A stretch of 64,000 nt of DNA from Phycisphaeraceae bacterium (GTDB lineage: Bacteria > Planctomycetota > Phycisphaerae > Phycisphaerales > UBA1924), in contig JAHBWW010000001.1 in the NCBI GenBank assembly GCA_019636795.1, positions 186,001 through 250,000 of the forward strand. The letters are read 5' to 3'. Shown here one piece after another: positions 51,171-64,000 of the stretch. Each line of letters begins with the position of its first letter. Position 1 is the stretch's first letter. The notes beneath the pieces are model-generated. The model worked only from the letters and a program-made list of their open reading frames with translations. It was not told where the DNA came from and searched no databases. The position numbers and the translations under genes are program-made.

Positions 51171-54100
51171 TTATTGATCGAGCAGATGAATCAGCCTCGC
51201 TTCGTGATCGATCAGGTCGCAGCCGCACTCGTTGTTGTGCGAGAGGATGCCTCGGCGGGCGCGATCGATCAGGTCGCCCAGGTCGTGGGTGTGCTCGTCG
51301 TGCGCGCACAGTTCGGGTTCACCGGTGGGTTGATCGGAATCTTTGTGCTGTTCGTTGTCCTTCTCTTTGTCCCCCTCGTTGTCCCTCTCTTTGTGGTCGC
51401 TTGCTCTGGGCCTGGGCGCTTCGAGGGCAAGCTGGAGGAGGCGGTGGCGCTCGGCGCGGATGCGCTCGCGGTGCTGGCGATCGCGCTCGAGCGAGTAATA
51501 CTCGCGGCCGTCGATCCAGGTGGCTTCGCAGCGCGAGAGACTTGAGAGCGGGCTCCCGGACCAGATGACAAAGTCCGCGTCCTTGCCGGCTTCGAGCGAC
51601 CCGACGCGGTCGGCGATGCCGAGCTGGATCGCGGGGTTGATGGTGACGAACGCCAGCGCGTCGTGGGGCGCGATGTGTCCGTCGCCATACTTGACAGCCT
51701 TGGCGGCCTCGCCGTTCATCCGGCGTGCGAGTTCGTCGGAGTCGGAGTTGTAACTGGTCAGCACACCGACGCGGGTTTGAAGCGGTCCAGCGTAGGGAAT
51801 CGCATCCTGCACCTCGACCTTGTAGGCCCACCAGTCGCTGAAGAGGCTGGCGCCGATCGCGTGCTGGCGCACGGCCTCGGCCACCTTGTAGACTTCCAGC
51901 CCGTGCTGGAAGGTGCCGACGGTGAATCCGAACTCCTCGGCCACGCGACACAACATCAGAATCTCATCCTGGCGATAACTGTGGCAGTGCACAAGCCGCT
52001 CGCCCGCGAGAATCTCGGCGAGCGTCTCGAGCTCGAGATCCCGGCGCGGACGGGGCAGGGCTGCGATGCGCCGGTCCTGCTCTTCGACCGGGATGCGCAG
52101 CATGCGGATGCGGTCGATCTGCTGCTGATATCGGGCCGGGGCTGCTGCGTACTCCTGAGCGGCGAAGAACCGATCACGAATGATGGTCTCGACGCCCATG
52201 CGCGTCTGCGGGTAGCGTGTGGTGAAGCGGTCTCCCCAGTTGGACTGCTTGACGTTTTCGCCGAGCGCGAACTTGATGCCGGGTTTTGCATCTTCGAAAA
52301 ACATATCCTGCGGGCGCAGCGCGCCCCAGCGCACTTTGACGATCTGGCTCTGCCCGCCGATGGGGTTGGCCGAGCCGTGGAGCAGATTGGCGGTGGTGAC
52401 CCCGCCGGCGAGCTGGCGATACCAGTTGATGTTGCCGGGGTCGAGCGCGTCGCCGATGCGACATTCAGCCGTCACCGCCTGCCCTGCTTCATTGACTCCG
52501 AGTCGGAACAGCCCGGTGTGGCTGTGGGCGTCAATCAGGCCGGGCGTGATGTGTCGTCCGCCCGCGTCGAGCGAAGCGGTGCCTGCGGGAAGACTGATGG
52601 CTTCGAGCCCGCCCGCGCCAACCGCGACGATGCGCCCGTCAGAGACAATCATGTGCCCATTTTCGATGATGCCGTCGGGGCCCTGGGTCCAGATCGTTGC
52701 GTTGTGAAGAACGATGGTTTGTTGGGCAGGCGCTTCGGGCATTGCGTAGGGCCCGAACGGAACGCCGCCTAGGTCGTCCGGCGCGCGATGGATCTCCGGC
52801 TTCTTCGCGGCGCGTGTGCGAGGTGCACCCGACGGCTCGGTTGCTTGCTTGTCGCTCTCGGCCGGTGCCGCCTCGCCCGCCTCGACGGGGGCGGCCTGCT
52901 CGGTGCGCATCGCCGTCCACTGAAAGGTCTGACCAAAAGGAGCGATCCCGGTGCCAGCAAGCCGATCGCCGACAAGCACGCCGGACACAACATAGGTCAC
53001 CTGATCGTCGTCCTCGTCGTCAATGAGGAAGCTGATCGCGGGAAGGTCGATGACGACCTTGCGGGCCTTGTTGCGAGCATCGCCCTCGATCATCTCGATG
53101 GTTGTGCCCTTGACGATCATCTGCATTTCGAACCCATCACCGGTACGAATGTTCCACATGCCATCGAGCACGTCCTGCTTGCGGTCGGCAATGTGGTGGG
53201 AGTGACCTTCAACCCAGACGCTGAGGATTCTGGTTTTCTCATCGAACAGGCGGCCGTCAGTCACCACAAGACTCGCCAGCTTTCCGGCTTCGAGTGTGCC
53301 CAGGCGATCGTCCACGCCGAGAATCGCAGCGGGGATCGTGGTCAGCATCGCCAGCGCCCGGTCTTCGGAGAGCCCGGCTTCGATCGCGCGGCGGACGTTG
53401 TCGCGAAACTTCTGACCCTCGGGCAGTTTGCTGCTGGTCAACGCGACGGTGACCCCCGCGTCGGCCAGACGCCTCGGGTTCGTCGGTGCCTGTTCCCAGT
53501 GCATGAGGTCTGAAAGATCGATGCCCTCGGCCGCCGAGACGCTTGACACATCCGGAGCCGCCGGGAATCGCAGCGGCACGATCATCGTGTGCCCGTCAGC
53601 CGCGATCGCGTCGAGCCGGCGGAATTCAGTCCCGCTTCCGATGATGACAGTCCTGGCAACGTCGAGCCCGAACTCGCGGCTGATGGTCCCGGCGAGCAGG
53701 GCTTCGAGTTCGACGTTCGTGTCAAACCACAGCGGCGTCGCCTCAGGCTTGAGCGAATCGAGAAAACCCGCTGGCGTGCTGGCGGACTGCGCGTGTTGAT
53801 GCTCGGCATCGAGCAACACCTGCCGCACGAGTGCGACAGCACCCATGTGTGACGTGGGGTACGCGCGTTCGCCGCGCGTTGTCTCGAAAGCAACCATCTG
53901 AAACACATTGGCGGCGTAGGTTGTGGGGCGGTCCTTGCTGGTGTCGGCGGGGGCGTCGGCCGTGCTCACGACGGCGCCTCGGCCGCGGAAGATGCCGCCC
54001 CTGGGGCTCAGCGCCGCAGACACGAATCCGTTGTTTCGCAGAGTGCGCCGCGCGGCGGCATCGAGCCCGGGACCATCAATCACGCTGCGCTCGGGTATGA

Positions 54101-54464
54101 CCAGAGTGCTCCAGTGCCGTCCGGCGCGCCCCTCTGCGAGCGTGCCCGCGTCCACTTCGAAGAACGGCTCGATCAGGCCCGGGTAGATATGCAGCCCGGA
54201 CAGATCAACGACCTGCCAGCCACTGGTCGCGAGCGCCGCGGCATCGGGTTCGACACTGATGGTCTTGATGCGGCCTTGCTCGATGAAGAGTGTCGAGCCG
54301 GTGATGACTTCGCCGGGGCGAGCGTGGATCGTGGCGCCGGTCATCGCGAAGCGCATCGGCTCGGCGTGACGAACCCCATTGGCGGGCTCAGCGGTCGGAG
54401 CGTTTGAGGTGGGTTGAAGGCTCGATGCAGCGAGCACGATGGCCAGAGTGATGGTCTCGATCAT
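51171..54464 (-). CDS. Exported double amidohydrolase, N-terminal copy degenerate
   Basis: A 1097-residue protein with a signal peptide (about 1-20) and two amidohydrolase-type halves. The first (about 35-480) has PGLIEPFFEVDAG where metal binding needs PGLIDxHxH, so it lacks the His pair. The second (about 595-1010) has DAHSHTG, VHCHSYR, TFQHGLEVYK and a composite-sandwich ending (GSLEAGKDADFVIW), so it may be active. The C-terminal tail is charged and low in complexity (DHKERDNEGDKEKD), then Cys- and His-rich. Substrate unknown. Confidence 0.82.
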   Translation of the reverse strand: MIETITLAIVLAASSLQPTSNAPTAEPANGVRHAEPMRFAMTGATIHARPGEVITGSTLFIEQGRIKTISVEPDAAALATSGWQVVDLSGLHIYPGLIEPFFEVDAGTLAEGRAGRHWSTLVIPERSVIDGPGLDAAARRTLRNNGFVSAALSPRGGIFRGRGAVVSTADAPADTSKDRPTTYAANVFQMVAFETTRGERAYPTSHMGAVALVRQVLLDAEHQHAQSASTPAGFLDSLKPEATPLWFDTNVELEALLAGTISREFGLDVARTVIIGSGTEFRRLDAIAADGHTMIVPLRFPAAPDVSSVSAAEGIDLSDLMHWEQAPTNPRRLADAGVTVALTSSKLPEGQKFRDNVRRAIEAGLSEDRALAMLTTIPAAILGVDDRLGTLEAGKLASLVVTDGRLFDEKTRILSVWVEGHSHHIADRKQDVLDGMWNIRTGDGFEMQMIVKGTTIEMIEGDARNKARKVVIDLPAISFLIDDEDDDQVTYVVSGVLVGDRLAGTGIAPFGQTFQWTAMRTEQAAPVEAGEAAPAESDKQATEPSGAPRTRAAKKPEIHRAPDDLGGVPFGPYAMPEAPAQQTIVLHNATIWTQGPDGIIENGHMIVSDGRIVAVGAGGLEAISLPAGTASLDAGGRHITPGLIDAHSHTGLFRLGVNEAGQAVTAECRIGDALDPGNINWYRQLAGGVTTANLLHGSANPIGGQSQIVKVRWGALRPQDMFFEDAKPGIKFALGENVKQSNWGDRFTTRYPQTRMGVETIIRDRFFAAQEYAAAPARYQQQIDRIRMLRIPVEEQDRRIAALPRPRRDLELETLAEILAGERLVHCHSYRQDEILMLCRVAEEFGFTVGTFQHGLEVYKVAEAVRQHAIGASLFSDWWAYKVEVQDAIPYAGPLQTRVGVLTSYNSDSDELARRMNGEAAKAVKYGDGHIAPHDALAFVTINPAIQLGIADRVGSLEAGKDADFVIWSGSPLSSLSRCEATWIDGREYYSLERDRQHRERIRAERHRLLQLALEAPRPRASDHKERDNEGDKEKDNEQHKDSDQPTGEPELCAHDEHTHDLGDLIDRARRGILSHNNECGCDLIDHEARLIHLLDQ

Positions 54465-58229: not shown

Positions 58230-59453
58230 GTGTCCAAGATCAGAAGGGAATTGGCTGCATCGGAGGTTCCTGGTCTCTACTGCGAGATCGAACGTCGGCT
58301 CGAGCGCATCGGCATCCGAACGCAGCCGGAGGTTGCTGCCAAGATCCTGGAGATCGTTTCAAATGCAGATGCTGGGGCGAGCGATTACGCCCGTATTGTG
58401 TCGTCGGATCCGGCGCTGTCAGGGCGGCTGCTCAAGATGTCCAACTCGGCATTTTTTGCCCAGCGCCAGCCGGTGACGAGCGTTGATCGCGCGTGTGTGC
58501 TGCTGGGGCTCGAAAGGCTCAAGTCGCTGGCACTGGGCTTTTATGTGAGCCGGGCGGCATCTCATGATGCTTCGTCGCAACTGTCGCGCCTGGTTTGGAC
58601 GCAATCGATCTATCGAGCGTGTCTCGCGACGGTTCTGGCTCGCAAGCTTGTGCCTGCTCGCGCAGCTGAAGCGTTCGTGATCGGTCTTCTGCTCGACGCC
58701 GGCACGCCATTGATGCTCGAGCTTGTTGGGAACCACTACCTGCACTACCTTGAGGCCAATCCTCTTCCGCCGAAGCGCTTTACTGAAGAGTTCGAGACGC
58801 TTCCCTTCACGAGCGTTGATGTGATTGCAGCGCTGGGCCGGCACTGGAAACTTCCGGATCTGCTTCTGCGACCCCTGGAGTGGCAGCGGACCAATCCGGG
58901 GAATACAGCGCGCTCTGAGGATATTCATCAGCTGCATCGGATCGCGTTTTACGTCAGTGCGATCAAACTTGATCCTGAGAACAGCACGCCGCAGGGCGCT
59001 GCTCCGCTGCCACTGATCGCCAATCGGCTGTTCGACCTTGATGCGTCAGAGTTGTCGGAGATGATCAAGCGCAGTGTGCGGGAGTACGAAGCGACGTTCG
59101 CTGTGTTCTCGGATCTGGCGACCCAGATGAATGACATCAACTCGCTGCTCGACCAGGTGCAAGGCCAGCTTGTGCTTGCGATCGAGCGCACGATCGGCCA
59201 CACCCTGGAGTCACCGGACGCAAACGTCCCAATCGAGTTCGTCCTCGGAGGGCGTCGCATCGAACTGGTCCCGGAAGAGAACGACGCTTTTGTGGTCTTT
59301 CTGTGCAGCGCATCTGGCGAGAGGCTGACAAGTCAGTTCTTCAACCGATCGCTGATGTCTTCACAATCGGTGCTCGATGCGTTCGCGCTCGAGTCTTCAG
59401 CCGAGGACCAGTCGGCCCAGTTTGAATCATTCCTCTCGGCGTTTGCCGCCTGA
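58230..59453 (+). CDS. HDOD-domain signalling protein
   Basis: A 407-residue protein with an HDOD domain (about 25-230, IVSSDPALSGRLLKMSNSAFF and VDRACVLLGLERLKSLALG), a non-enzymatic relative of HD phosphohydrolases used in regulation. The C-terminal 150 residues are uncharacterised, with a possible coiled-coil part near 290-320. The GTG start follows GAGAGGTGACTGAGT. Its 3' end overlaps the convergent fusion gene by 27 bases. Confidence 0.85.
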   Translation: MSKIRRELAASEVPGLYCEIERRLERIGIRTQPEVAAKILEIVSNADAGASDYARIVSSDPALSGRLLKMSNSAFFAQRQPVTSVDRACVLLGLERLKSLALGFYVSRAASHDASSQLSRLVWTQSIYRACLATVLARKLVPARAAEAFVIGLLLDAGTPLMLELVGNHYLHYLEANPLPPKRFTEEFETLPFTSVDVIAALGRHWKLPDLLLRPLEWQRTNPGNTARSEDIHQLHRIAFYVSAIKLDPENSTPQGAAPLPLIANRLFDLDASELSEMIKRSVREYEATFAVFSDLATQMNDINSLLDQVQGQLVLAIERTIGHTLESPDANVPIEFVLGGRRIELVPEENDAFVVFLCSASGERLTSQFFNRSLMSSQSVLDAFALESSAEDQSAQFESFLSAFAA

Positions 59454-61922
59454 CGGCATAAGAAGCAGTCGCAGAAATTCCCCGAGGGTGAGCGTTCGAT
59501 AGCCGAGCCGATGTCGCTCGGCACCAAGGGCGTAGAGCCTCTGCCAGTGTCCGAGCATGACACGTCGTGCCCAAGCGAACGATCGAGAGGGGTCGTACAT
59601 GTTGGTTGATTCGCTGGTGGTGCCGTTTGCTTCGATGATGGCAAAGCCTTGTCCGGCGTGCAGCAGGTCTTCGCATTCGAAGCGCAGGTCGAATCGGCCG
59701 TAGTCGAATCCGGCGTTGTGGAAGTTGCGGGCGATGTCGTTGATTGCAGCCTCGAGTGCGGGTGACTTGAGATCCTCGCCATCCATGAACATGGTTCCTT
59801 GCGCATGATTTCCGGCGAACGAAAGTGCGAGAGTTTCTGCGGGGGCGAGCACGCGATCGAGCTGGTCGCGGAATCGATCAAGAAACAGTGAGGCCTGGCA
59901 GCAAAATCGCGGATGAGACCAGATGAGTTGTGCGACGGTACTGTGGCCATCACCTTCGAGACGCTGGAAGACTTTGCGCGTGATGGAGTAGATGAAGCCA
60001 TCGCGCTGGTCGATGGGGGTTGGATCCTCGGCGGCGGACCTGCGCATCCAGAAGACGCTGCATTCGTGCGGACCTGGATGGAAGCGCTGGAGCATGATCG
60101 CTCCGGGAATGGAATGAATGGCTGCTTCCAGCTCAATGGGATCGTGCGCAAGCGCAACGCCGATTCCTCTTTGGCCGCTATCCGGTTTGACAACGACGGG
60201 GAAGCCACCGAGTGCCGGAGTGCCTTCGAGTGCAAGCAGGGCGCGCGTGTACCGATCATCGCAGTCGGCAATGCGCACCGCTGGCAGCACGCGCGTCTCC
60301 TGGGGATGGAACTGGGCGATGATCGCTGACTTGGATTCGCCGACGAACCCGCCTCCGTTCTCGATACCCGGGTTTGCAGCGGCAAAAGCCAGCACCGATC
60401 GGGAACGCCAGGCTTCTCGGGCGAGATTCGGAAGAACCGAGGCATAGTACACGCTCGATGGCCACCATTCGTGATGCAACGCTCGTGTCACTGTTGCGGC
60501 GATGCGGCGCCGACCGACCCAGGTCAATCCGAGCCTCAATGATCGCAGCCCGATCACACTCACACAGAAAAGCGGAACAAACGCCCACCCATCCCACGCG
60601 CCGGCGGGGCCATCGATCAGGGCTGCAACGATCGACGCGAGAGACAAGGCGAACGGCACCCACAAGACAGCACTGAGCACGGAACGCGCGGATCGAGTTT
60701 GGCGCGCACCCAGGACACGATCGGTGATCTGTCCGAGGAACAGACCAACGAAGGCGACGCCAAAATCGAGATTCCCTGATGCGACAAAGAACGCAGCGAG
60801 CAGCGTCGCAGTATCAGGCCTGCGCCAGGCAAAAATGGCAAGCAGTGGCGTGAGCACCCACCACGCAGTCCAGCGAACAACAACACCAGCGTGCTCGATC
60901 CATCCGATTGGCCCGGCGATGTCTGCGGTTGGCGCGAGGTCATCGTAGAGCGTCAATGGCGGAACGCCGAGCACATCGTGCCGATTGGCGTGTTCGAGTA
61001 TGAACGCTGCACTTTGTTGAGGCTGGAGCATCGGGAGAAAGTGGCTCGCATCGAGCATGACGAGCCTGCTGGTCGAGATCAGCGAGTGGTGATATTCGGC
61101 TGCCCAGTCGGGGACGAGCGGGTCGTGGCGTCCATGCAGAATCAAGGTCGGCACTTGCAAGCGTCGCATGACGTTTTCGAGGGGTCTTTGGTCCGAGTCA
61201 AGAAAACTGCGGATAAAAGTGTGCCGAAACTCGGTTGTTCCAAGCGAGCCGAAGTGTGGGATCAACTCGGGCAACGCCACGACAACGGGGACGCCGAGCA
61301 GATATTTGCCCTGTTCAAACCAGTAACTGCCGGAGCCTTCCGTTTCCTGGGCGCCGATCGAGGCAAGCAGCGTGAGCGATGCGACGCGATCGCGTGCGAC
61401 ATCGCTGACATGCAGCCCGACTCCGCCGCTGTTCGACCAGCACACGAGATGCACCCGATCAAGGCCGAGCGCATTGAGGAGTTCGATGACGGCAAAGGCC
61501 GAGGCCTCGAATGAGTAGTCGGGCACCCAGCGTTCTGATCGACCAAATCCGGGCAGATCGATGGCGATGACGCGCCGACCGGCCTTGGCGAGATGGTCAA
61601 CGAACGTCTGGCCCGATTCATCCTGAAGCAACATGAAGTCGAGGGCTCGTCCCGGAGAGCCGTGGAGCAGCACGATTGGCGCGTCGTCAGCATGCGCCGG
61701 CAGGCCGACATCGGCGTAGCCGAGCAGAAGGCGCTCGTTCGGGCTTGGCCCCTCGCGCGTGACCATCGGGATTTCGATGCTGCGCTCGATGGGTAGAGGC
61801 TGGTCGTCCCGCGAGCGATTGATGTGTTGAACGATGTGTGAGGCGAGCAGGAGCAGCGCATATGCAGTCAGCACGCCGAGAGCGACCATCGAGCGGGGAT
61901 GTCGGGCTTGCCCGCGTGTCAC
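59427..61922 (-). CDS. Alpha/beta hydrolase - multi-spanning membrane - ATP-grasp fusion protein
   Basis: An 831-residue three-part protein. Residues 12-32 are a membrane segment; 65-310 an alpha/beta hydrolase with oxyanion HGSPG, nucleophile Ser165 (CWSNSGG), Asp267 (GRHDPLVP) and His294 (DASHFLP); 350-470 about five membrane segments; 510-800 an ATP-grasp ligase-like domain with Lys579 (VVVKPDSGQRGIG) and metal-binding end IIEANGTTSES. The GTG start shares GTGA with the stop of the upstream pseudo-decarboxylase. I know no described family with this order. Confidence 0.85.
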   Translation of the reverse strand: MTRGQARHPRSMVALGVLTAYALLLLASHIVQHINRSRDDQPLPIERSIEIPMVTREGPSPNERLLLGYADVGLPAHADDAPIVLLHGSPGRALDFMLLQDESGQTFVDHLAKAGRRVIAIDLPGFGRSERWVPDYSFEASAFAVIELLNALGLDRVHLVCWSNSGGVGLHVSDVARDRVASLTLLASIGAQETEGSGSYWFEQGKYLLGVPVVVALPELIPHFGSLGTTEFRHTFIRSFLDSDQRPLENVMRRLQVPTLILHGRHDPLVPDWAAEYHHSLISTSRLVMLDASHFLPMLQPQQSAAFILEHANRHDVLGVPPLTLYDDLAPTADIAGPIGWIEHAGVVVRWTAWWVLTPLLAIFAWRRPDTATLLAAFFVASGNLDFGVAFVGLFLGQITDRVLGARQTRSARSVLSAVLWVPFALSLASIVAALIDGPAGAWDGWAFVPLFCVSVIGLRSLRLGLTWVGRRRIAATVTRALHHEWWPSSVYYASVLPNLAREAWRSRSVLAFAAANPGIENGGGFVGESKSAIIAQFHPQETRVLPAVRIADCDDRYTRALLALEGTPALGGFPVVVKPDSGQRGIGVALAHDPIELEAAIHSIPGAIMLQRFHPGPHECSVFWMRRSAAEDPTPIDQRDGFIYSITRKVFQRLEGDGHSTVAQLIWSHPRFCCQASLFLDRFRDQLDRVLAPAETLALSFAGNHAQGTMFMDGEDLKSPALEAAINDIARNFHNAGFDYGRFDLRFECEDLLHAGQGFAIIEANGTTSESTNMYDPSRSFAWARRVMLGHWQRLYALGAERHRLGYRTLTLGEFLRLLLMPSGGKRREE

Positions 61923-63184
61923 AGTATGACCTCCTGCGATTCGAGTTCGGGCACGAGCGCATCGGAGACTCCTCTTCTTGGGAGGATGATGCGGGACTTT
62001 CCGGCGCTGAGGAGAATTTCGCAGGCTGAGTGTCCGCTGTGCCGGGCGCGGTAGCCACCGGCGGGCCAGGCGATGAGGTCGCCGGGATTCGCTCGCACAC
62101 TGTGCTCCAGCGCACCGTCGATCTGGCCAGCGTCTCGTGGTGTCGCGTCTGGGTCAGAAGGTGCGACGATTGGTCGAACTGCGCTGGACCGTGCGATCGC
62201 GACGCAGGGAACGCCATCACACACGACTCGGCGCGCTGCAACGCCCTGGCGAACCCCGAGCACGCGCGAGATGGCTGCGCAGGAACCAGCGCAGAGCGAC
62301 CAACCGGGCTCGATGACAACTTTTGCACCCGCTTCGACCAGCGGCAGAAGCAGCGCAGCGACCGCGCCGGCATACTCAGCCGGGGTTGGCGCGTCCTGGT
62401 CCACTTCGTTGCTTGCGAACCCACCCCCAAGATTGAGCAGCGTGATCGGGTGGTTGCGCTTCATGAGCTGATCAGCCAGGCGCACGAAGCGCTCGACGCA
62501 TGCGACGAAACTGTCGACAGTTCTGGCTTGCTCGCCAGCGTGCATGTGCAATCCTCGCAGGCGAAGGCGCGACTCATTGCCGAACTCATCGAAGAGCTCG
62601 AGCGCGTGCTCGGCAGAAATGCCCCACGATCCATGGCCGGTCCCGCCGACGTCAACGGCGCAGATTGCGTTGCATGCGATGCGTACTCCGTTGGCAATGC
62701 GAGAAATCTGCCGAAGTTCTGTGCCTGTTTCGACGCTGAACCACCCGATTGGTCCGCGGTAATATGGCGGGCGACCTTCGACCAGCCGGCCGGACTGAAA
62801 CATCGGGCTGTAGAGCCCGTCGAGGGCAGCACGAACATCATCGTCGCTTCGCCCAAGACCGGCATAGACAACCCGCGTCATGGGCACGCCACTCAGCCAC
62901 GCGCGCTCCAGATCGGTGCCAGATCGAATGCTCAGCCCCGCGCCACGCTTGGCCAGGTGATGAAGGACATGTGTGTTTGGAATGGCATCGACATCAAAAC
63001 TCACCATCGCCCGAAGTTCGGAAAACGCTTCGGCAAACGCATAGAAGCGCTCGACCATGGTGTCCACGTCGTAGATCACGATCGGCGACCCGACACGGGC
63101 GACCAGGGTTTCGGCCCGTAGTGTGCCGATGTTCAGGCCGCCTCGATCAACATGGATGTTCAAGTCCAGATCTCCGGCGTTCAT
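61919..63184 (-). CDS. Type III PLP-decarboxylase fold protein lacking the PLP lysine
   Basis: A 421-residue alanine-racemase-fold protein of the diaminopimelate/ornithine decarboxylase family. The barrel motifs LNLGGGFAS and VVIEPGWSLCAGS are present, as is a C-terminal block PAGGYRARHSGHSACEILL. The Schiff-base motif YAVKAN is FDVDAI here, so the PLP lysine is Asp66; normal decarboxylation should be impossible. The ATG at 63184 overlaps rlmN by 38 bases; a TTG at 63163 with GGAG upstream is an alternative. It is coupled to the ATP-grasp fusion gene by GTGA. Confidence 0.85.
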   Translation of the reverse strand: MNAGDLDLNIHVDRGGLNIGTLRAETLVARVGSPIVIYDVDTMVERFYAFAEAFSELRAMVSFDVDAIPNTHVLHHLAKRGAGLSIRSGTDLERAWLSGVPMTRVVYAGLGRSDDDVRAALDGLYSPMFQSGRLVEGRPPYYRGPIGWFSVETGTELRQISRIANGVRIACNAICAVDVGGTGHGSWGISAEHALELFDEFGNESRLRLRGLHMHAGEQARTVDSFVACVERFVRLADQLMKRNHPITLLNLGGGFASNEVDQDAPTPAEYAGAVAALLLPLVEAGAKVVIEPGWSLCAGSCAAISRVLGVRQGVAARRVVCDGVPCVAIARSSAVRPIVAPSDPDATPRDAGQIDGALEHSVRANPGDLIAWPAGGYRARHSGHSACEILLSAGKSRIILPRRGVSDALVPELESQEVIL

Positions 63185-64000
63185 GCAACATTGGTTCGGC
63201 CGATGACACTCGTGTTGAACCCGAGTCATCAATGGTCAGATTGACAAGGCGTCGGCGCCTGATCTCGGCCGAGCCGAGTTGTCCGCATGCGCCCATCATG
63301 TCGCGCCCTTTCGTGCGGCGACGCTTGACGTACACACCATAGCGCACGAGAGCGCCCATGAAGCGCTCGACGTCCGATTCCTCCGGCGCAGGCCACGGCG
63401 AGTTGCGGCGGGGGTTGTATGGAATCAGGTTCACAAGCCCGATCGGGACGCTTCGGCCCGGAGCCTTGCCGAAGGGTGCGAGATAGTCTGCGAGTTGAGC
63501 AGCGTGCTCGTCGGCATCATTGACGCCGGGGATGAGTACGTACTCGAAGCAGATCTTGCCGCTGGCGCGCATAGGAAAACGAAGGAGTGCATCGCGCAGA
63601 TCACTCATCGGCATCGCCCGGTTGATGGGCATGAGTTGCGATCGTATCTCGTCGTTGGGGGCGTTGATGCTCACCGCAAGCCCGAGCCGGCGGTAACCCT
63701 CCTCGCGCGTCAGGCCAGCGAGTTGGGCGAGTCCATCGATGCGTCCGACGGTCGAGACCGTGATATTGCTTGCGCCCAGTGCCGGGCCGTTGTGATCGCA
63801 CAGCACCCGAATCGCCTGCGCTACCGCGTCGAAGTTGTCGAGCGGTTCGCCCATACCCATGAACACGAGGTTATTGATTCGGCCCCCTTCGAGGTGCCCG
63901 ATCAGGTGCGTTGCGGTGAACCACTGTGCCACGATTTCTGAGGCCGAGAGACTGCGTACACGCCCCATCTGGGCTGTCTCGCAGAAAGTACATCCCATCG
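63147..64000 (-). CDS. rlmN: 23S rRNA/tRNA adenosine C2-methyltransferase RlmN (5' end outside the window)
   Basis: A partial frame of 283 residues running off the right edge. It begins inside the radical-SAM cluster motif (GCTFCETAQMG keeps the last two Cys) and includes GMGEPLDNF, STVGRIDGL, LAVSINAPNDEIR, NLIPYNP and the C-terminal catalytic Cys in GACGQLG. It methylates A2503 of 23S rRNA and A37 of tRNAs. It is the first visible gene of a minus-strand run with the pseudo-decarboxylase and the ATP-grasp fusion. Confidence 0.93.
   Translation of the reverse strand, partial: MGCTFCETAQMGRVRSLSASEIVAQWFTATHLIGHLEGGRINNLVFMGMGEPLDNFDAVAQAIRVLCDHNGPALGASNITVSTVGRIDGLAQLAGLTREEGYRRLGLAVSINAPNDEIRSQLMPINRAMPMSDLRDALLRFPMRASGKICFEYVLIPGVNDADEHAAQLADYLAPFGKAPGRSVPIGLVNLIPYNPRRNSPWPAPEESDVERFMGALVRYGVYVKRRRTKGRDMMGACGQLGSAEIRRRRLVNLTIDDSGSTRVSSAEPMLHERRRSGLEHPC

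Follow-up and report, generated by a model that had tools for sequence, protein, structure and literature searches.

In butirosin biosynthesis, BtrJ and BtrK bring together a soluble ATP-grasp ligase, an active type III PLP decarboxylase and a carrier protein. An ATP-grasp domain is also found in the cyanophycin synthetase CphA1, which makes an Asp-Arg polymer, carries a second ligase domain and lacks any hydrolase or VTT part. Homologues of type III decarboxylases can also lose their activity and act by binding other proteins, as does antizyme inhibitor, a eukaryotic protein that derives from ornithine decarboxylase and binds antizyme (PMC3084279). Among membrane proteins, a survey of DedA subfamilies lists fusions to rhodanese, PAP2 and disulfide-reductase domains, and a hydrolase fusion gave no match there (PMC10127716). 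A literature search found no paper on a DedA-ATP-grasp or hydrolase-ATP-grasp fusion, though papers containing both DedA and ATP-grasp exist. Here we describe a locus in which a homologue of diaminopimelate decarboxylase (LysA) that appears to have lost its active site, and which we call pseudo-LysA, is encoded next to such a fusion. Like antizyme inhibitor, pseudo-LysA is a type III decarboxylase homologue without the activity; unlike antizyme inhibitor, it is bacterial and sits beside a membrane ligase.

The window, by which we mean the whole stretch of 64,000 nucleotides that was analysed, comes from the genome of a Phycisphaeraceae bacterium (G000). The initial annotation had described two co-translated genes in it, joined by a GTGA overlap. 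The locus is laid out as follows:

63147..63998, minus strand: rlmN, directly upstream of pseudo-LysA, with its 5' part beyond the window edge
61919..63184, minus strand: pseudo-LysA gene (gene 1), 421 aa, putatively derived from diaminopimelate decarboxylase, start codon uncertain
61930..61935, minus strand: Shine-Dalgarno sequence AGGAGG of the fusion gene, within the conserved ELES(Q/H)EV codons at the 3' end of pseudo-LysA
61919..61922, minus strand: four-base GTGA stop/start overlap of pseudo-LysA and the fusion gene
59427..61922, minus strand: fusion gene (gene 2), 831 aa, with predicted alpha/beta hydrolase, eroded DedA/VTT membrane domain and ATP-grasp ligase

Seven bases separate AGGAGG from the GTG of the fusion gene. 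The overlap and the upstream Shine-Dalgarno sequence (in ESHEV or ESQEV codons) are kept in 5/5 genomes of the window's clade; because they recur among pseudo-decarboxylases that are only 43-86% identical, the coupling is not due to chance, and the proposal of co-translation stands. The rlmN stop (63147) lies within the annotated pseudo-LysA gene, 38 bases from its start, and therefore the operon probably begins with rlmN and runs rlmN, pseudo-LysA, fusion; rlmN adjoining the fusion gene is common in the family. At its other end the fusion gene overlaps tail-to-tail, by 27 bases (59427-59453), with an HDOD gene on the plus strand (58230-59453). Elsewhere in the window, positions 51171-54464 encode a 1097-aa protein that apparently holds two amidohydrolase-type halves in one chain.

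Gene 1 had been assigned a type III PLP-decarboxylase fold with a dead active site, and both parts of this assignment were confirmed. The protein matches Pfam Orn_Arg_deC_N (E 1.8e-25), and scans of Pfam and NCBIfam returned no family beyond decarboxylase and racemase types. In a sequence search of the PDB, diaminopimelate decarboxylases match at E 1e-23 and BtrK at E 5e-5 to 1e-4; likewise, the predicted model (pLDDT 78) finds a LysA structure by Foldseek at E 1.6e-27, with BtrK well behind. Judged by these matches, pseudo-LysA is a descendant of diaminopimelate decarboxylase and not of BtrK. LysA (TIGR01048; PDB 2p3e, 3vab) is its closest sequence relative and shares its fold over most of its length, including the PLP-cradle histidine and the GGG loop. 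It differs from LysA in lacking the Schiff-base lysine and the Cys-Glu and Arg substrate residues, in having a novel inserted motif, and in reaching 122.3 bits against TIGR01048 (E 9e-37), below the cut-off of 297.9. Two features of the gene mark the change:

62987..62989, minus strand: codon of Asp66, which replaces the PLP Schiff-base lysine (Lys in 42/42 true LysA)
62741..62821, minus strand: lineage-specific conserved stretch DGLYSPMFQSGRLVEGRPPYYRGPIGW, residues 122-148 of pseudo-LysA, with the core PPYYRGP

For the comparison of active sites, we aligned the protein to 42 true LysA from its order and checked ten positions, all of which are present in 42/42 of the true enzymes. In the window's protein, EPGR has become EPGW, removing the substrate arginine, and GPxCE is lost. 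Among the eight pseudo-LysA that we identified, the PLP-cradle histidine and GGG loop are retained in every one, EPGR is altered in every one, and none keeps the Cys-Glu pair of GPxCE. The position of the Schiff-base lysine is occupied by D in G000, G033 and G079, E in G078, A in G024, Q in G174 and G175, and K in G021. The catalytic lysine is thus lost in 7/8, and the exception, G021, keeps it without the Arg and the Cys-Glu.

The eight genomes, which belong to five genera, came out on top in both of our surveys: one scanned 163 genomes from the family with a profile, the other screened 400 genomes from the order by motif. In a tree of LysA sequences, their pseudo-LysA form a single clade with support 100/99 (midpoint root, long branches). 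G175 additionally carries, on a separate contig, a LysA with intact catalytic motifs, and the dead lineage is therefore a paralogue in that genome. By the Nei-Gojobori method, dN/dS in the closest pair, the distant pairs being saturated, is 0.14 for pseudo-LysA, 0.175 for the fusion gene and 0.12 for rlmN, which indicates that pseudo-LysA is under purifying selection. Because of this value, and with the reading frames intact, a decaying pseudogene is disfavoured.

A protein under selection could also have gained a different catalytic activity, using the same barrel and a new site around DGLYSP-PPYYRGP, with the fusion protein acting in the same new pathway. The DGLYSP-PPYYRGP stretch is the most conserved part of the dead sequences, and its PPYYRGP core is found in 8/8 of them and 0/42 true LysA; the purifying selection also fits with such a gain. 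However, the region of the fold from which the substrate residues would normally come is lost, the C-terminal domain is poorly conserved apart from its terminal ELES(Q/H)EV, and we recognised no cofactor or metal motif in a protein that matches only decarboxylase and racemase families. We consider a new catalytic activity unlikely.

Gene 2 was described as a hydrolase-membrane-ATP-grasp fusion, and the catalytic triad, the membrane helices and the ATP-grasp residues could all be identified:

61830..61889, minus strand: N-terminal transmembrane helix, about residues 12-31, with a basic N-terminal flank
60987..61745, minus strand: alpha/beta hydrolase domain, about residues 60-312, triad Ser163, Asp267, His294
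60477..60929, minus strand: membrane region homologous to VTT/DedA, residues 332-482, second re-entrant half (RxxPGxR..AAG) deleted
59478..60464, minus strand: ATP-grasp domain, about residues 487-815, cyanophycin-synthetase/RimK/LysX-like, with Lys579, Glu620, Asp745, Glu764 and Asn766

The hydrolase domain is recognised at E 7e-22 with a complete triad. Across 57 full-length fusions, each triad residue is at least 95% conserved and the five ATP-grasp residues are 100% conserved. L082, which had been clustered with the fusion in error, was disregarded. The ligase domain matches the cyanophycin synthetase profile best (E 2.3e-8). The predicted model of the membrane and ligase parts is confident (pLDDT 92). 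In structural comparison the CphA1 ATP-grasp domain (PDB 7wae, 7txv) leads, with Z 17.1 and an rmsd of 4.2 over 267 residues, followed by LysX/ArgX (Z 14.9) and then glutathione synthetase and D-Ala-D-Ala ligases. The fusion protein itself is not a member of the cyanophycin synthetase family TIGR02068 (9.6 bits against a cut-off of 850). Unlike in CphA1, its ATP-grasp domain is fused to a membrane part, in the order hydrolase, VTT, ATP-grasp. In full-length fusions, both the N-terminus and the segment preceding the ATP-grasp domain are basic, which suggests a topology with the hydrolase outside and the ligase inside, although the VTT topology leaves this sidedness uncertain. These charges come from the full-length fusions; the positive flank seen in a mixed set was misleading.

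Relatives of the fusion exceed the Pfam cut-off for VTT/DedA (PF09335), and the membrane region of the window's clade aligns to the relatives' VTT profile with an hhalign probability of 97.5% (E 8e-12). By homology, then, the membrane part is a degenerate DedA/VTT lipid-transporter domain of the kind that is intact in relatives. Those relatives keep the SED and RxxPGxR motifs, as in DedA/VTT transporters (PF09335; UptA), whereas alignment shows the window's clade to be without the SED acid and without the whole second re-entrant half that holds RxxPGxR, a motif present in 36 of the 72 fusion loci tabulated. E. coli YqjA has essential residues (PMC7818093), and the positions lost in the window's clade seem to correspond to them. 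Erosion of the domain tracks gene context: it is mostly eroded downstream of rlmN and mostly intact downstream of NRDE, DinB or GH3 genes. At locus L166, an eroded VTT domain lies alongside an intact neighbouring LysA, and therefore, in at least one line, erosion set in before LysA died.

The initial annotation had asked whether the two genes co-occur and stay adjacent across genomes. In one direction they do, as pseudo-LysA lies directly upstream of the fusion gene in 8/8 genomes. In the other they do not: of 61 genomes searched, the fusion finds a match in 49 (in a few of them to the hydrolase part only), and only four have the pseudo-LysA lineage. As the fusion mostly exists without pseudo-LysA, pseudo-LysA cannot be needed for the core reaction; it is a lineage-specific add-on. 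The idea that the fusion partners decarboxylases in general is rejected, since most fusions have no decarboxylase neighbour. In the tree of fusion proteins, the carriers of pseudo-LysA fall into two separate groups, with weak deep support. A search of the neighbourhoods for peptide or cell-wall genes, which the initial annotation had suggested, linked no such gene set to the locus, and we recognised no conserved neighbour that would make it a cell-wall or peptide operon; at other loci, the partners that recur are VTT, TANGO2/NRDE and DinB-like genes.

The proteins may also be neighbours by coincidence, the ancestral adjacency of lysA and the fusion being merely retained while the two work apart. 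An intact lysA stands directly beside the fusion gene at L166 and within about 9 kb of it in G004, G029 and G030, so the adjacency could have been inherited from an ancestral lysA position and owe nothing to interaction. Against this, all eight pseudo-LysA genes are adjacent to the fusion, whereas the family includes several intact lysA that are on a different contig from the fusion, and the GTGA coupling is preserved throughout the window's clade. Coincidence therefore seems to us an improbable account.

The setting in which LysA died can be read from the rest of its pathway. We scored presence of the pathway by searches for the LysA, dapA, dapB and dapF families, for which controls worked. 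No match to dapA, dapB or dapF was found in G000, G033, G079 or G021; G024 gave a single dapA match of 21.8 bits and none to dapB or dapF. A large part of the family has no LysA above cut-off, G000, G033, G024 and G021 among them, and all lysine-pathway genes searched are present in G029 and G030. With dap genes and LysA missing, the dead LysA sits in genomes that have apparently lost DAP/lysine synthesis. Loss of peptidoglycan was rejected as the cause, as murE scores above cut-off in 14/14 genomes tested. That murE is kept in G000, G033, G079, G024 and G021 despite the dap losses bears on the third residue of their peptidoglycan stem, or on their source of DAP. A separate case is G017, where an intact LysA is kept and dapA, dapB and dapF have no match; this LysA might act on scavenged DAP.

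With the dap genes gone, pseudo-LysA might be a relic of lysine synthesis, kept solely because its 3' end supplies the ribosome-binding site and the translational coupling of the fusion gene. Its final codons do contain the Shine-Dalgarno sequence, and they encode a conserved C-terminal ELES(Q/H)EV. Yet a relic of this kind predicts only a short conserved 3' segment, whereas about 420 codons remain in an unbroken frame, the low dN/dS applies to the whole gene, and between genera a central stretch of 79 aa shows 71-77% identity. We regard the relic account as very unlikely. Weakest of all is a membrane form of a BtrJ/BtrK-like natural-product pathway, which the initial annotation had raised and in which the ligase would load an amino acid and the decarboxylase homologue act on it: the same two fold classes, ATP-grasp and type III decarboxylase, are indeed adjacent here, but LysA is far nearer than BtrK, the catalytic lysine is absent, the ligase is nearest to cyanophycin synthetase and LysX/ArgX, and the conserved neighbourhoods that were read (genes of at least 90 aa called) showed no recognisable gene for a carrier protein or any other biosynthetic function, so that we give it almost no credence.

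Collectively, the comparisons show a lysA paralogue, with rlmN on one side and a membrane ligase gene on the other, that became catalytically dead as far as its residues tell, yet is selected and translationally coupled to the ligase. They also show a predicted ligase protein whose hydrolase and ATP-grasp domains appear intact and are linked by a degenerate DedA/VTT domain. The reading that we prefer, with a probability of roughly 45%, sees pseudo-LysA as a subunit without catalytic function in a membrane amino-acid ligase/hydrolase. In this model, the ATP-grasp domain would join an amino acid or other amine to a carboxylate at the cytoplasmic face of the membrane, the carboxylate probably being carried on a lipid or lipid-linked molecule, and the hydrolase, likely outside, would cut such a ligation product. 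Pseudo-LysA would hold or sense an amino-acid-like or PLP-like ligand and set the activity of the ligase, its choice of substrate or its assembly at the membrane, much as antizyme inhibitor works by binding a protein and not by catalysis. The dead enzyme would thereby replace or regulate a function, either by binding a ligand or by holding the complex together. Our best guess for pseudo-LysA itself is a non-catalytic ligand-sensing or scaffolding subunit, and the earlier suggestion of an amino-acid-like ligand bound by a protein that would feed or regulate ligation is plausible. A literature search found no described function for pseudo-LysA or for the fusion protein.

Relatives of the parts of the fusion recur outside the Planctomycetota. 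The ligase domain has relatives on plasmids of Pseudomonadota. In Salinivibrio, the gene order is VTT, ATP-grasp, DinB-like, NRDE/TANGO2, and its DinB-like (E 3e-20) and NRDE (E 1e-25) proteins have relatives next to the planctomycete fusions. Paracoccus has ATP-grasp and hydrolase genes, plus VTT on the opposite strand; VTT and ATP-grasp are fused in Azospirillum; and in Gemmata sp. IIL30 (L194:6678-9014) NRDE/TANGO2, VTT and ATP-grasp form a single protein. In Paracoccus denitrificans PD1222, the genes are PDEN_RS24485 (ATP-grasp), PDEN_RS25810 (hydrolase) and PDEN_RS24475 (VTT). Komagataeibacter homologues are without these module neighbours. By homology and gene order, these records show VTT, ATP-grasp, hydrolase, TANGO2/NRDE and DinB-like proteins as a recurring putative module, separate or fused, in at least two phyla (Planctomycetota and Pseudomonadota). 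This envelope module is apparently undescribed so far; a link to graspetides was looked for in the literature, in a search of narrow scope, and not found. In L216, L222 and other Pseudomonadota records, the module ligases are annotated as D-alanine--D-alanine ligase, and neither their neighbours nor the ligase domain gave any sign of that role. Human TANGO2 is reported to bind acyl-CoA (PMC11867700). Two records with Phycisphaerales-type genes carry labels that look wrong, L131 (RHKP01000018.1, "Cyanobacteria bacterium CYA N2_1") and L143 (QWIH01000009.1, "Leptolyngbya sp. PLA1").

A wider proposal, which we hold tentatively and think possible at best, is of a new membrane system in which the hydrolase-DedA-ATP-grasp protein would make and cut an amino-acid-bearing lipid or lipid-linked molecule. 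The dead LysA, sensing lysine, DAP or PLP after loss of the pathway, would regulate it in one lineage, and the system, together with its TANGO2/NRDE and DinB-like partners, would make up an envelope module common to Planctomycetota and Pseudomonadota. Of pseudo-LysA itself we can speak more firmly: on the evidence of conserved sequence, it is a real, selected pseudoenzyme of narrow distribution in an uncharacterised membrane system. It is a case of a metabolic enzyme that outlives its own pathway and becomes a pseudoenzyme tied to one partner, with G021, where the lysine is kept, as an intermediate and G175 still holding both LysA copies. As the module is present in accessible organisms such as Paracoccus denitrificans, its function is testable, and once tested, the bacterial set of partners could also be informative about the TANGO2 family.
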